Positions 9,596-64,000 of a stretch of 64,000 bases of DNA are shown here, piece by piece. Within the stretch, counting starts at the first letter, position 1. Every line of letters begins with the position of its first letter. The position numbers and the translations under genes were made by a program. This stretch comes from Ischnura elegans (lineage: Eukaryota > Arthropoda > Insecta > Odonata > Coenagrionidae). The notes below the pieces were generated by a model. That model was not told the origin of the DNA. It ran no database searches and saw only the letters and a list, made by a program, of their open reading frames with translations. The stretch spans positions 87,406,566 through 87,470,565 of the forward strand of contig NC_060251.1 in NCBI RefSeq assembly GCF_921293095.1, in the 5' to 3' direction.

Positions 9596-10455
9596 GCACC
9601 TAGGAATGATGAAGGCAGCGATAAATCTAGGGACATGGAATTTGAGGACAATGATGAAGATGGGGAAGGTAGAAAATATCAAAGGAGGAATGATATCTTA
9701 GGATTATGCAAAGTGAAGTAGGAGGATGGTAAGGACTACCCAAGAGATGGGTAGAGGACTATTTAGAGTGGTGGGGAGGAAAGTCAACAAGGGGTATCTT
9801 TAGTATTAAATGGCAAGATGGGTAAGCATGTGGTAGGCATAGACCAGGTAAGCGATAGGATTCTGTTGGTAGAAATTGAGGCAACCTTGTGGTGGTTCAA
9901 GTTTACATGCCCACTAGTAATTATAGGGAAGAAGTAGATGAGGTGTATGAACAGCTTAAGGAAATAATTAGGGAAACTCCAGGTAAGAAAAATCTAGCAG
10001 TGATGGGGGGACTGGAATGCCACTATCAGGGAGGGGAGGGATGGAAACGAAAGGGAAGAACTTGGATTAGGAACACAGAACAACAGGGGAGAGAAAGCAG
10101 CAGAATTTTGGAGGAGAAAAAAGTATTCATCACAAACACACTATTAAATCATCATAAAGGGAAAAGGTACAAATGGAAAAGTGCAGGTAATATGGGGAGA
10201 TATCACAGACTATATCATGGTAAGACTAAAGTTAATAATAGTGAGAAAAACTCGCACAGCTTCCCAGTAGCGGATACTGTTTCATCTCACAACCTAGTAT
10301 GTACTCATGAAATGCAATGTAAGATTTAAAAGACTAATGAAAATTAGAAAGGCACAGAAATAGAATGTAGAAGTGTAGAAGGGGATTATGAGAAGATAAT
10401 ATCAGGAATTAAAGGAAGGGAGGAATAATATAAAAACTGAAAGTAAAGCAGTGGA

Positions 10456-10638
10456 ATAAAATAAAATGGTAAACTTCCACACAATTTTATTTACGAAGTA
10501 CCGACCTGGTTTCGACACGTAATGTCATTATCAAGGTAATTATCCTCGTGGAATAAAATTGTGTGGAAGTTTACCATTTTATTTTATTCTCATGGATATA
10601 AAACATTTCCACCAGATATCGCTGGACGCTGTGAATTA
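10456..10638 (-). mobile_element. hairpin-tail retroinsertion, Penelope-terminal type, with hammerhead-like motif
   Basis: The 183-bp insertion in the LINE is flanked by 12-bp direct repeats TAAAGCAGTGGA (10444-10455 and 10639-10650). It carries two identical 38-bp arms in inverted orientation (10454-10491 and 10552-10589), a 60-base spacer and a tail of about 49 bases (10590-10638). In the spacer the minus strand (10535-10501) reads CTTGATAAT, a GACA/TGTC stem, GAAA, ACC-A-GGT and GTC. This is the order of a hammerhead core (CTGATGA in the intact form). The 12-bp duplication implies target-primed retroinsertion, not cut-and-paste transposition. It codes for nothing. Confidence 0.7.
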
Positions 10639-17381: not shown

Positions 17382-18207
17382 TCAAATATCAATAATGACA
17401 AAAACTTCCTTCTTTTCTCCGTCATGATGGACCTGCATATTAGAATAAGTAATTGCTTTCACCTCCGTGCCTTGCGGGTGCTTTCCTATTTCAAACGGCT
17501 CCCCAAAACATCTTGCTTTTATCTTGAAATTCTCAGCATCGAACTCGAGAATCCTCACAACCTAGAGAAAATTACAAATCTTTCGTTATGCACTTAACCA
17601 TGAGTAAATACCAATGTCTATGCATTCAGATAAGGCAAGAATTTAATATCAGAATATTCTCCCAAGAGGAGATAAAATAGGTGTGTTTTTATCTGTTAAA
17701 CATAATACAATTTTACTAACCCTGGCAATAAAAAAATGATCGGCACAAAATATAAATAGTAATTCATCTAAAAAGTGGTAAAGTAGAGATAACAAATCAT
17801 GGCCTTCAGCTTCAATGTCTATGGTGTATTTTATGGCAACGTAGTCGATTTCGGTCATGTAACCATACATGGCCATACCGCATTGCTCGAAAGCTTCCTC
17901 CAAAGTATCACCCCAGGCATGCAATCTAAAATAAATAAAACAAATTAATAAAAATTCCATACACCATGATTTCACTGATAGCATTCTTAGTTATTTCACA
18001 GAAATATCACGGCGACAAATCGAAGTACATACTGAACATCAGCTGTATGATCCAAATCTGAAATATAACAAAATTAAGAATTTAAGAGCAATTGTAAACA
18101 AGTGCTGGCCATGCAAAAATGCTTGCCCAAGAAAACATACATTCATATTTGATGGGCGGAATAGAGATGTCTTCGCCTCCATACAGTGTCAACTCTTCGT
18201 CTGACAT
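17382..18207 (-). CDS. archease (ZBTB8OS-type RTCB ligase cofactor)
   Basis: Archease activates the RTCB RNA ligase complex, which joins exons after tRNA splicing and in the XBP1-type unfolded protein response; it speeds guanylylation of RTCB. The gene has four exons: 18207-18141 (67 nt), 18057-18033 (a 25-nt micro-exon), 17925-17721 (205 nt) and 17561-17382 (180 nt with TGA). All junctions are GT-AG and the phases agree, giving 158 residues against 167 in human. The start MSDEELTLYGGED is the only ATG before the first donor. Family landmarks are KYEYLDHTADVQLHAWG (residues 20-36), DTLEEAFEQC and YGYMTE, FHFLDE-like YHFLDELLFIF, KHPQGTEVKAITYSNMQV, and the C-terminal end FVIIDI. The Asp in HTAD and the Asp in the last IIDI correspond to the acidic metal site of the family. 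The gene appears intact. The 5' side is CpG-rich. Confidence 0.97.
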
Positions 18208-18654: not shown

Positions 18655-20245
18655 TTATTTATTTATTTATTGTTCCGTTGGTCAAGGAAATTTGACATAG
18701 AACATGGTCATGAAAACATATAAATATACACTTTACACAATATAGACACATTATATTACAAGATACTCTAATCATAGCATTAGAGTTGGTCACAAAAGTA
18801 TTCATTAACACAGTAGTAAACTTTATTGAGCAACATTTTCTTTAATTGACATTTGAATGTGTGGGGAGATATAATTAACTTAATTGATTGGGGCAATTTA
18901 TTGTATATAAGGGAAGCAGAGTGAAGCGGTCCATGTTGAGCAGCAGTCAGGTTATAACTGTGCAGATGAATGTGGTTCTTGGAGCGAGTGGAGTGCTGAT
19001 TAATGGTGGAACTTAGTGGAAACAGAGACGGATTGTTTTTTGCAAAGGTGCAACATTACAAAATATACAAACAGGGTAGAGTAAGTATATTTAGTGCTTT
19101 GAAGAGAGGTCTTCCAGGTGCTCTGATAGATACCCTAGCAATGGCTTTAATTGATCTTTTTTGGAATGAGAAGGCTTTAGTTACAGCACTACTGTTACCC
19201 CAGAAGATAATTCCAAAAGACAGGTGGGAATGAATTGCAGCATAATAGACTAATTTCAAAGTGTCAGTGGAGGTGATCGAGGCTAGTTTCCTTAACATGA
19301 AGATACCGGTTGAGATTTTCTGTATAACTTTATTAATATGGAAAGACCAGTCAAGATCTTCTCTAAGGTGGAAGCCAAGAAAATCAGTGGAAGTAGAGCG
19401 GTGAATACTCTTATTATTGATTCTTAATAATAAGGTAGATGTTGGTGGAGATATTTTACAGTGAAAATGCATGAAGCATGATTTATTGTTGTTAAGTGTC
19501 AGGTTGTTTTCAAGACACCAATTCACCATACTGATTAGGGTGTGATTTGTGCTGCTAGACAAGTCATCCAGAGTCAACCCAGTGTTTATGGAAGAAGTAT
19601 CATCAGCATATAAAATTGTGCTGCAATTAGGCAATGAAAGAGGAAGGTCATTTATGAAAATTATGAACAACAGGGGTCCCAAAATAGAACCTTGAGGAAC
19701 GCCACAACTTGCTTCAAGAGTTCCGGATTTAAAGGTGTTTATTCCCAACTCAGACTTACTTCTGTATTGCACAATTTGTTTGCGATTAGACAGGTATGAC
19801 ATAATCCATGCATGAGCATTACCATTAATACCGATATTTAATAATTTACTGGATAATATACTGTGATCAATTGTGTCAAAAGCCTTACTCAGGTCAAAGA
19901 AGATGCCTGTAACCCTTTCATGTTTGTTTAAGGACTGGCATATGGTATTGAGAAGATGGAACGCAGCTGTTGTTGTAGATTTACTTTTTCTGAAACCATG
20001 TTGAGCTGCATGCAACAAATTATATTTTTCAAGATAGTTTACAATGCGGTTGTACATGAGTTTCTCAAAAATTTTTGAGAAAACTGACAGGATGGAGATT
20101 GGTCTGTAGTTATTAGAATCGATTACTGATCCCTTCTTGTGAATGGGTGATATATAAGGGCTACTTTTAAGTAAGTTGGAAAATGACCCTCTGAAATTGA
20201 TGAGTTGAAAATATCAGAGAGAGGTTTGTGATTATTATTTCAAAT
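18655..20245 (-). mobile_element. Jockey/CR1-like LINE, 5'-truncated, well preserved
   Basis: Read on the minus strand, this is the reverse transcriptase half of a non-LTR retrotransposon. A 333-codon open frame (20057-19056) contains QHGFRKSKSTTTAAFHLL, FFDLSKAFDTIDH, GVPQGSILGPLLFIIFINDL, the catalytic TILYADDTSS, NNKSCFMHF and STDFLGFHL. One in-frame TAA ends it after LPCLYIL, but the same frame stays open for a further 95 or so codons (to about 18770), with the family's usual C-terminal LIYNKLPQSIK. One frame change lies upstream near 20150, before KKGSVIDSNNYRPISILSVF. The copy is truncated at its 5' side near 20245 and ends 3' in a short (AATA)n tail at about 18655-18672. The few lesions make it younger than other LINEs here. 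Confidence 0.9.
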
Positions 20246-62129: not shown

Positions 62130-63290
62130 TGAAAAGAAAAATGTTATAGTCATGAAAACACAGCTTCAGCAGCCATTGAATGATTCATAGTTGATGGTGA
62201 TTTTAAGATTCGAAAATACATAAATATACAGCAGGAGTTTGTTATTGTGAAAATGGTATATAACTTGATCAAGACCCTGAGGGTGGGTCACATGGGGGAT
62301 ACCCTCCTGAGGGACTGCCCCCCTGGGGGGCAGTGCTCTAGTCAATGATGGCAAAAAGAGTCAAGTATGTGGCAGGAGTGCAATTTATTTCTATGTTAAA
62401 AGTATACTCTCACCTAAGTTCCTTTTATTGTGCATTAAGTCTTTTGCATAAATGTGCTATGAAAACTATACATCTACTGGATTCTAAATAAATATTTGAT
62501 TAGTAATTGTTTTTAATTTAACTACCACAATGTTACTCATTTGGTTTTTAGTCATTATTCTAATTATTATTTTAAAGTTACCGATTTGGGGACGTTAAGA
62601 ATAGGTTTATGGATCCAAGGGGGTGGCGGTTCGAAAGACTTTGGGAAACACTGGTTCAACACCTACCAATGACCATTCAAATATTTCGACTTCCTAAGTC
62701 TTACGATAACTGTCCAACTGCCTCACCCGAAATAAAATCCGATACCTATAGGTAATATGAAACCATTTTAGTGGAGAACATGGAGCTCCACTAAAATTCC
62801 ATGCTCCACTAAATTCACTCCATTATTGCCCCAGTGAATGTAAACCAATACAGAAAGAAATCTGAGAGGATTTACAAGGGGAAAATTGAGTTCCATCCTA
62901 ACAACCTGCACTTTGGCCAACCCAGAAAGATAATCCGTTAAGATTATCAAGTGAAAATGTAAGTAGAATTGGGGAGGAGGGAAAGCTACCATTTTAAGCA
63001 CACACGCCACTTTTTAACGAAATTTAGTACTGAAATTTAGGAGAAGGTTGGAGCAGAGCAATAGAGGGATCCGTGGCTTTTCTTGCACATCTTGTGGAGT
63101 GGTAAAGTGGATTTGGCCATGGCCTTCACAGAGACAGAGCATTAGGTTTCCTTCATGCCCTCTGCTCTGTAGGTCTTGGATCAAAGCTCAAAGCAAAACG
63201 GTTAAGATGCTATACCCTCCGCTGTGTATCCACTTCCTGCTTTTTAAGTGAAAATTGATGGAAACAATTACTTGTCAACTCAAATTATTA
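62130..63290. other. spacer or intron with a hAT right-end fragment
   Basis: At 62270-62325 a segment resembles the left part of the repeat at 57605. At about 62630-62652 AAAGACTTTGGGAAACACTG is a typical hAT right end (CAGTGTTTCCCAAAG inverted) without a recognised left end. No gene was identified. Confidence 0.4.
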
Positions 63291-63967
63291 CTGGAAGTAA
63301 GGAAATAAAACTTTGTAAGGTTCACTGTTATTTAATTATGGGCACGACCCGGGTTTCGTAACTTGGTTACATCGTCAGGTGACTGATCTTGCATGCATCC
63401 TACATTTATACACAAAGTACAAAAGTGACAGTGAGGACATCTATCGGAAAGGAAAAGGACTGGTTGAAAGGGTAGGTGAGGGTTAAACATGGAATGGAAT
63501 AGGGAGAGGGGGGGGGGGGGGTAAGGGGGCAGCCTTGATTTGGGACAAGGGTTTTTCCTGTGACGATAGGTATCTGACCAGCCAGGGGAGGGCGGGGTTA
63601 AAGTGGGTGAGGAGACGAGAGCTAAAGAAGGTGGCGGTGTTGGGGAAGAAAGAGAGGATTAGCGGGGTACATTGTGTTTTCTAAATCACAATAGTCTATG
63701 GAAGGTCGTTGAGTCCGGCTGTGGAAGGTGCTGGTATGGGTTAATGATTTCCCCGAAAGGACATGGGTCACTGGGGGAATTTTGGTAAAAGCACTGCGTA
63801 GTATTCGTTCTAACGGCATGATGCATGCAAGATCAGTCACCTGACGATGTAACCAAGTTACGAAACCCGGGTCGTGCCCATAATTAAATAACAGTGAACC
63901 TCACAAAGTTTTATTTCCTTACTTCCAATATGGAGAGGTTTCACAAAGTACAGCCTGAAGTAATAAG
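63291..63967. mobile_element. foldback retroinsertion with hammerhead-like motif in each arm
   Basis: The 677-bp insertion is flanked by 11-bp duplications TCAAATTATTA (63280-63290 and 63968-63978). Two 107-bp inverted arms, differing by at most a couple of bases (63293-63399 and 63820-63926), enclose about 420 bp; a tail of 41 bases follows. Each arm contains, in the right copy at 63838-63876, CAC, CTGACGA, T, a GTAAC-CAA-GTTAC stem, GAAA, the palindrome ACCCGGGT, and GTC followed by GTG, which pairs with CAC. This is the order and spacing of a hammerhead ribozyme with a minimal stem III, as reported for Penelope-like terminal repeats. The middle is GC-rich and contains a long G run (about 63507-63521). 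There is no convincing protein. Confidence 0.75.
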
Positions 63968-64000
63968 TCAAATTATTATGTTTTTTTTCTCAATACATAA

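Follow-up and report, generated by a model that had tools for sequence, protein, structure and literature searches.

Background

Penelope-like elements (PLEs) are said, after Cervera and de la Pena in 2014, to carry minimal type I hammerhead ribozymes. Here we describe a 677-bp insertion derived from such an element in Ischnura elegans, located in a 64,000-nucleotide stretch of contig NC_060251.1 (assembly GCF_921293095.1, positions 87,406,566 to 87,470,565, forward strand); this whole stretch, numbered from its first letter, is referred to as the window. Published minimal PLE hammerheads combine a CTGANGA and GAAA core with a very short stem III and an open stem I, and are located in the pseudo-long terminal repeat (pLTR) of the element (PMC7229834, PMC6155905). 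PLEs encoding a reverse transcriptase (RT) and a GIY-YIG endonuclease have direct and inverted pLTRs, target-site duplications (TSDs), an open reading frame (ORF) that starts at the pLTR end and an optional 30-40-nt extension at that end, called the "tail" (PMC3846280, PMC11167929). Inverted pLTRs with the optional tail on one copy have already been published (PMC3846280). In the Anolis PAc element the hammerhead likewise lies beside the ORF start, and in vitro both target strands are cut and extended, the tail being the stretch between two RT start sites (PMC11167929). Metazoan retrozymes, for which PLEs have been proposed as mobilisers, also contain a type I hammerhead, used as a dimer in amphibians, and consist of direct tandem repeats of about 300 bp (PMC7229834).

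The family described here shares with GIY-YIG PLEs all the traits listed above, but the window copy differs from them in being doubly truncated and in having no ORF. Its hammerhead has the core, stem III, stem I and pLTR location of the minimal PLE motifs but differs, as far as published descriptions allow comparison, in one U between A9 and stem II, and in not being recognised by the Rfam models; the accessible part of PMC3088659, which gives other core insertions, does not show one at this position. Whereas the Anolis PAc ORF starts at stem II and is cut 26 bp inside (PMC11167929), the ATG lies here about 56 nt after the cleavage site. Direct tandem hammerhead repeats, which together with circular RNA mark retrozymes, are not found here: the unit is an inverted PLE fragment, like all 14 of the close motif pairs described below.

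Identity of the insertion

The window insertion (Table 1) is a doubly truncated fragment of a GIY-YIG Penelope-like element, and its inverted arms are two copies of the element's 3' end. This identification follows from the RVT_1 and GIY-YIG domains of sibling copies and from an optional tail like that of the Penelope literature (PMC3846280, PMC11167929). A search of the 1.72-Gb genome with the 677-bp unit gave 107 matches from the 40 candidates scored out of 1582. The copies that were fetched have one end in common, to within a few bases or with a tail, and vary in length at the other. Upstream of the common 3' end, RVT_1 was found in the frame of copy L037 (2.9e-7) and GIY-YIG in that of L034 (1.9e-5); a 108-aa fragment of L037 gave no domain match. 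In L037, a direct 5' repeat of the 3' region leads through a decayed hammerhead to ATG GAG AGG TTT CAC AAA and an open N-terminal frame. A tail was called at the right end of the window copy (L001 in the locus numbering), and it starts with the ATG from which the open frame of L037 continues. The family has a pLTR with an optional tail in direct and inverted copies, TSDs and 5' truncation.

The two fragments of the window copy lie head to head, with the element's 3' end at both sides and one pLTR hammerhead per arm. At the left the copy stops just short of the ORF start codon, whereas at the right it takes in the ATG and 12 codons. The inverted arms (63289-63408 and 63811-63930) are 120 nt long and 95% identical, with an ungapped core of 108 nt (63292-63399 and 63820-63927) at 99.07% identity. 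Both the arm and the 402-nt body of the longer cDNA align to genome copies, the body at 92-95%. An earlier interpretation made without database searches (the sequence-only reading) had proposed the same limits and a Penelope-like origin, and was right in both. The unit is flanked by the 11-bp TSD TCAAATTATTA. By eye, the tail encodes a similar ORF start across several families (MERFHKVKPEVI, MDFHKVKPETI and alike in L037, L070-L083 and the window).

One tailed and one tail-less end per head-to-head insertion

Exactly one tailed and one tail-less end were found in 25 of the 25 distinct head-to-head insertions with both ends readable. Eleven belong to the window family, namely the insertions among L001-L030 for which both ends were found, the window copy included (L003 and L004 being two sides of one insertion). 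A second set, which supplies the other 14, was drawn from genome matches to the core pattern CTGANGATG N8-14 CGAAAC N1-6 GTC, with nested matches counted. The first 100 matches listed reduce to 94 places with 53 distinct motifs, among which mutually related decayed copies are common. Among these 94 places, neighbouring motifs less than 1 kb apart are arranged minus-then-plus, with 3' ends outward, in 14 of 14 cases. The 14 pairs and the window make up 15 rows from four families (GTCGC, 9 pairs; GATGA, 2; a short-stem family, 1; the window family, 2). TSDs were placed in 13 of the 15 rows; in these, one end is 44-55 nt away from the cleavage position and the other 83-102 nt.

Own-family 3' ends for which no partner end was found carry a tail in 7 of 18 cases, so that an independent choice at each end would give one of each in about half of the insertions. 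Because all 25 insertions have a single tail, priming on both strands from different start sites is the simplest reading. Copies L008 and L028 look simply truncated, yet beside the TSD the former starts with 7 nt of antisense tail and the latter with 13 nt; L016 starts with a longer antisense tail, and no TSD was found for it. The 3' ends of all three are tail-less.

Taken as a whole, an origin by double truncation and two-strand priming, with a hammerhead that belongs to the parent element, is very likely the best explanation of the insertion. The element endonuclease would cut both target strands some bases apart, and both target 3' ends would then prime reverse transcription on element RNA. 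Two RT start sites about 40 nt apart, one used per strand, would yield one end with a tail and one without. Both cDNAs (about 528 and 149 nt in the window copy) would end early and be joined in the middle of the insertion, which would make the inverted repeat a by-product of their joining. In the parent element, the hammerhead could cut RNA between direct pLTRs, its palindromic stem III probably allowing it to act in dimeric form.

Several points weigh against this scheme. For such structures, PMC3846280 prefers self-priming on an antisense template. The Anolis PLE hammerhead cut only with protein present and was dispensable for insertion in vitro, mutants with a dead hammerhead still inserting, and the strands did not differ in start site in that study (PMC11167929). 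Some copies do not fit easily: L071 and L074 have no convincing TSD, although by eye each still has one tail; the 5' end of L033 shows an 8-nt repeat, with seemingly no antisense remnant; L030 has a piece of antisense arm without its 3' end (arm 62-120), and L011 has two separate antisense pieces, so that some copies are more complex. No TSD was found for most long copies. Given L033 and L030, a two-ended structure is not claimed for every copy.

The alternative that survives best, although we regard it as unlikely, is that one cDNA (or an antisense RNA) snaps back on itself and is copied, generating inverted arms. Such self-priming was put forward for the Penelope element of Adineta vaga from palindromes at inverted junctions (PMC3846280), and some junctions in I. 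elegans also coincide with short palindromic stretches, as in L089 and L058. However, a snapped-back copy is expected to repeat the first end, including its tail, and to continue into the target DNA; neither the single tail of 25 of 25 insertions nor the TSDs found in most of them are predicted.

The sequence-only reading had treated the two inverted motifs as a special unit. A dedicated foldback transposon or retrozyme-like unit of 677 bp, mobilised by means of both opposed ribozymes, would be in line with one head-to-head unit (spacing 100) that is common to eight loci (L084-L091). These loci share flanks, and hence go back to a single insertion that spread within another repeat (in L087 the shared sequence is limited to the right flank and the closest portion of the left one). 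Other inverted copies vary in junction and length, and among the 40 scored candidates only L002 (query 13-651, 91%) and L011 (5-617, 86%) span most of the unit, L011 being rearranged. A mobile foldback unit is therefore very improbable; both ends are rather 3' ends of the element, as the orientation of all 14 close pairs indicates.

The hammerhead motif

Both arms contain an identical stretch of 33 nt, CTGACGA-T-GTAAC-CAA-GTTAC-GAAACCCGGGTC, followed by GTG. It is composed of CTGACGA, one T, a GTAAC/GTTAC stem with a CAA loop, GAAA, the palindrome ACCCGGGT and C17; the subsequent GTG is able to pair with the CAC that precedes the core. The CUGANGA and GAAA core is therefore present in each arm, with C as the H17 base. 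A covariance search had been named beforehand as the test of the motif, and its outcome depended on the model. With Rfam 15, no hammerhead was found at the gathering threshold over the 64-kb window or at E<=10 over 62801-64000, and 20 sibling loci picked for having the motif gave 17 matches, none of them a hammerhead. (The miRNA-type Rfam matches of L058 probably stem from a palindrome in that locus.) We read these negatives as insensitivity of the Rfam models to the minimal hammerheads of PLEs; the motif is put forward as a putative hammerhead variant, not as a member of any Rfam family.

A covariance model (R1) was built from an alignment (A1) of 16 hammerheads from other families of the same genome, with the window family excluded. 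Of 20 motifs fetched, four were set aside: L061 because it is related to the window family, and L051, L067 and L068 for short or poorly paired stems, an exclusion that favours structure. The two window arms scored 39.3 bits each with R1 (E 2.2e-9), ahead of a PLE relic at 28.5 bits and of all other matches at 13.5 bits or less. Since the model was built without the window family, this result argues that the hammerhead-type core noticed in both arms by the sequence-only reading is not due to chance; the test is independent for the stems and background only, because the source pattern fixed the core.

In A1, 83.8% of the cells are paired, versus 72.7% in shuffled and 8-40% in slid versions, and 22 cells are changed on both sides, versus 8.6 in shuffles. 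Weaker measures are the number of pairs with a double change (7, a number that 45 of 500 shuffles also attained, versus 5.2) and of further pair types (16, attained by 15 of 500, versus 12.4). Helices I and II vary on both sides in sibling families, with helix I paired in 66.7% of cells. The helix III pairs are invariant in A1, yet stem III is palindromic in 37 of the 53 distinct motifs, with eight different palindromes, in agreement with the very short palindromic stem III described originally. For 50 of these motifs (three shorter ones dropped), the outer five positions of stem II are paired in 89.6% of cases, versus 62.3% after shuffling. The single T before stem II, which had been taken for a departure from the canonical core, proved to be the rule in this genome: CTGANGA is followed by T in 4618 matches, by another base in 251 and by no inserted base in 45, the last two sets overlapping where two G follow. 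Separately, 14 of 21 hammerheads (L050-L069 and the window) have the word GTGRA at +17 to +21 past the predicted cleavage site (shuffled mean 0.5, maximum 3 of 21); this word is read as a conserved pLTR element.

That the string is a chance resemblance or a decayed relic of no ribozyme significance would agree with the Rfam negatives and with the fold energy of a single arm, which is no better than that of shuffles (z -0.71) and is uninformative. We nevertheless hold this to be highly improbable in view of the stem covariation across families, of a stem III that stays palindromic though its sequence changes, and of the surplus of cDNA ends, described below, at the predicted cleavage site. The core pattern also has 4618 matches genome-wide against 36 with G8 changed to C. 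This ratio was rejected as a measure of constraint, because many of the 36 are decayed copies of the same families; it shows a repeat family only.

Finally, a chance head-to-head arrangement of two independent PLE insertions, for which the abundance of PLE motifs in the genome might speak, is scarcely credible, since a single pair of TSDs encloses the whole unit and all 14 close pairs are head to head.

cDNA ends at the predicted cleavage site

In the window copy both arms run on beyond the predicted cleavage position; hence the two templates had not been cut at this site. Folding of a transcript of the unit predicts that the arms pair along almost their entire length into a long hairpin (minimum free energy -294.2 kcal/mol, as against an average of -181.6 kcal/mol in 20 shuffles; z -25). 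As this predicted pairing buries the motif, the unit is an unlikely place for ribozyme activity, and by the folding model the window insertion would not be a working double ribozyme. An active-type motif on each strand had been proposed from the letters; instead, the sense motif lies in the arm transcribed second, where by prediction it would be paired with the other arm.

Elsewhere in the genome, own-family copies were sought whose start is exactly at G1.1, the base directly following the cleavage site, and whose preceding base is not C17. Fourteen starts were listed and all 14 places were read (13 loci, L098 holding two). L099 was dropped from the junction set, its upstream sequence being a mutated pLTR, and L102 and L103 represent one event, which leaves 12 G1.1 ends in 11 insertions. 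For three of these ends the position is uncertain by one or a few bases. In L097 and L101 the G may come from the other arm, and in L096 GGTT may be mutated pLTR. Two more G1.1 ends were seen in L095 and L104. There are thus three insertions, L095, L098 and L104, whose two cDNAs both terminate at G1.1; their spacers measure 2, 5 and 19 nt.

For the neighbouring offsets, match listings were the only source. One base upstream of G1.1, the single start listed is an internal deletion, which leaves no junction; one base downstream, four of nine are junctions; and five bases downstream, where the fixed part of the pattern is shorter, about five of 19 are junctions and two are unclear. Thus, 9-12 listed ends at G1.1 compare with 0, 4 and 5 at the three neighbouring offsets; other, weaker hot spots are present. 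In a second family, five ends lie at G1.1 (one of them, L111, without a visible partner arm) versus one a base downstream.

A comparison set was formed by 24 close pairs, 17 of them independent, among the first 100 matches of a separate listing. In the 16 independent pairs that were measured, with both arms past the site, the 32 ends are spread over 17-182 nt upstream of it (alignment estimates), and the most repeated end, at 35 nt upstream, occurs four times, twice within one insertion. No ends were found at C17, where a block of RT by stem III would be expected to put them. Two side observations concern junctions: positions 35-36 nt upstream of the cleavage site are a recurrent end point in the measured pairs, and head-to-head junctions fall on or next to the 5' border of the hammerhead core in L058 and L110, as well as in L089, L120 and L121.

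The excess suggests that self-cleaved template RNA may lie behind the G1.1 ends. It is possible, though we put this forward tentatively, that the insertions record PLE integration with two start sites per event, in which some templates would be pre-cut by the hammerhead so that RT runs off at G1.1, and in which stem III could dimerise the templates and supply one RNA per target strand. Our confidence in this combined reading was lowered slightly because three ends proved ambiguous. For the Anolis element, RNA-seq ends at the cleavage site were not found (PMC11167929).

Other features of the window

The coordinates of the insertion are collected in Table 1. A decayed PLE hammerhead at 10497-10540 on the minus strand (R1 28.5 bits, E 3.5e-6) sits between inverted AT-rich arms containing GTGTGGAAGT, within about 10450-10590; this region is probably a second, older head-to-head PLE relic. 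An open frame at 17649-17990 (minus strand) with the Pfam domain Archease (PF01951, 3.6e-19) is probably an exon of a host gene. A separate retrotransposon is represented by a 385-aa open frame at 19056-20213 (minus strand) with RVT_1 (7.9e-37).

Table 1. Features of the head-to-head PLE insertion, in window coordinates
Feature	Position	Strand	Remarks
Left TSD TCAAATTATTA	63280..63290	.	exact repeat of 63968-63978
Whole insertion	63291..63967	.	677 bp; a single PLE family, present as two 3' fragments head to head
Longer cDNA (putative)	63291..63818	-	final ~528 nt of the PLE, sense on this strand; 3' end at 63291, without tail
Left-arm hammerhead core	63346..63378	-	predicted cleavage 63346/63345; R1 match 63340-63384 (-), 39.3 bits
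Junction between the two cDNAs	about 63818/63819		
Shorter cDNA (putative)	63819..63967	+	3'-terminal ~149 nt of the PLE; tailed 3' end
Right-arm hammerhead core	63841..63873	+	predicted cleavage 63873/63874; R1 match 63835-63879 (+), 39.3 bits
PLE tail, from ORF start codon	63930..63967	+	ATG GAG AGG TTT CAC AAA GTA CAG CCT GAA GTA ATA AG
Right TSD TCAAATTATTA	63968..63978	.	exact repeat of 63280-63290

Implications for PLE integration

Hammerheads and inverted pLTRs of PLEs are already in the literature. New to us are the one-tail rule, as counted here, and the surplus of cDNA ends at the site of cleavage. A literature search that covered mainly freely available papers yielded no report of either, and among the papers listed in a search on twin priming in PLEs none seemed relevant. 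The genome of I. elegans has enough near-identical insertions for intermediates of PLE integration to be read. The one-tail rule is something that models of PLE integration must account for. Should the surplus of cDNA ends at the ribozyme cleavage site hold genome-wide, it would amount to direct evidence that the hammerhead cuts in vivo.
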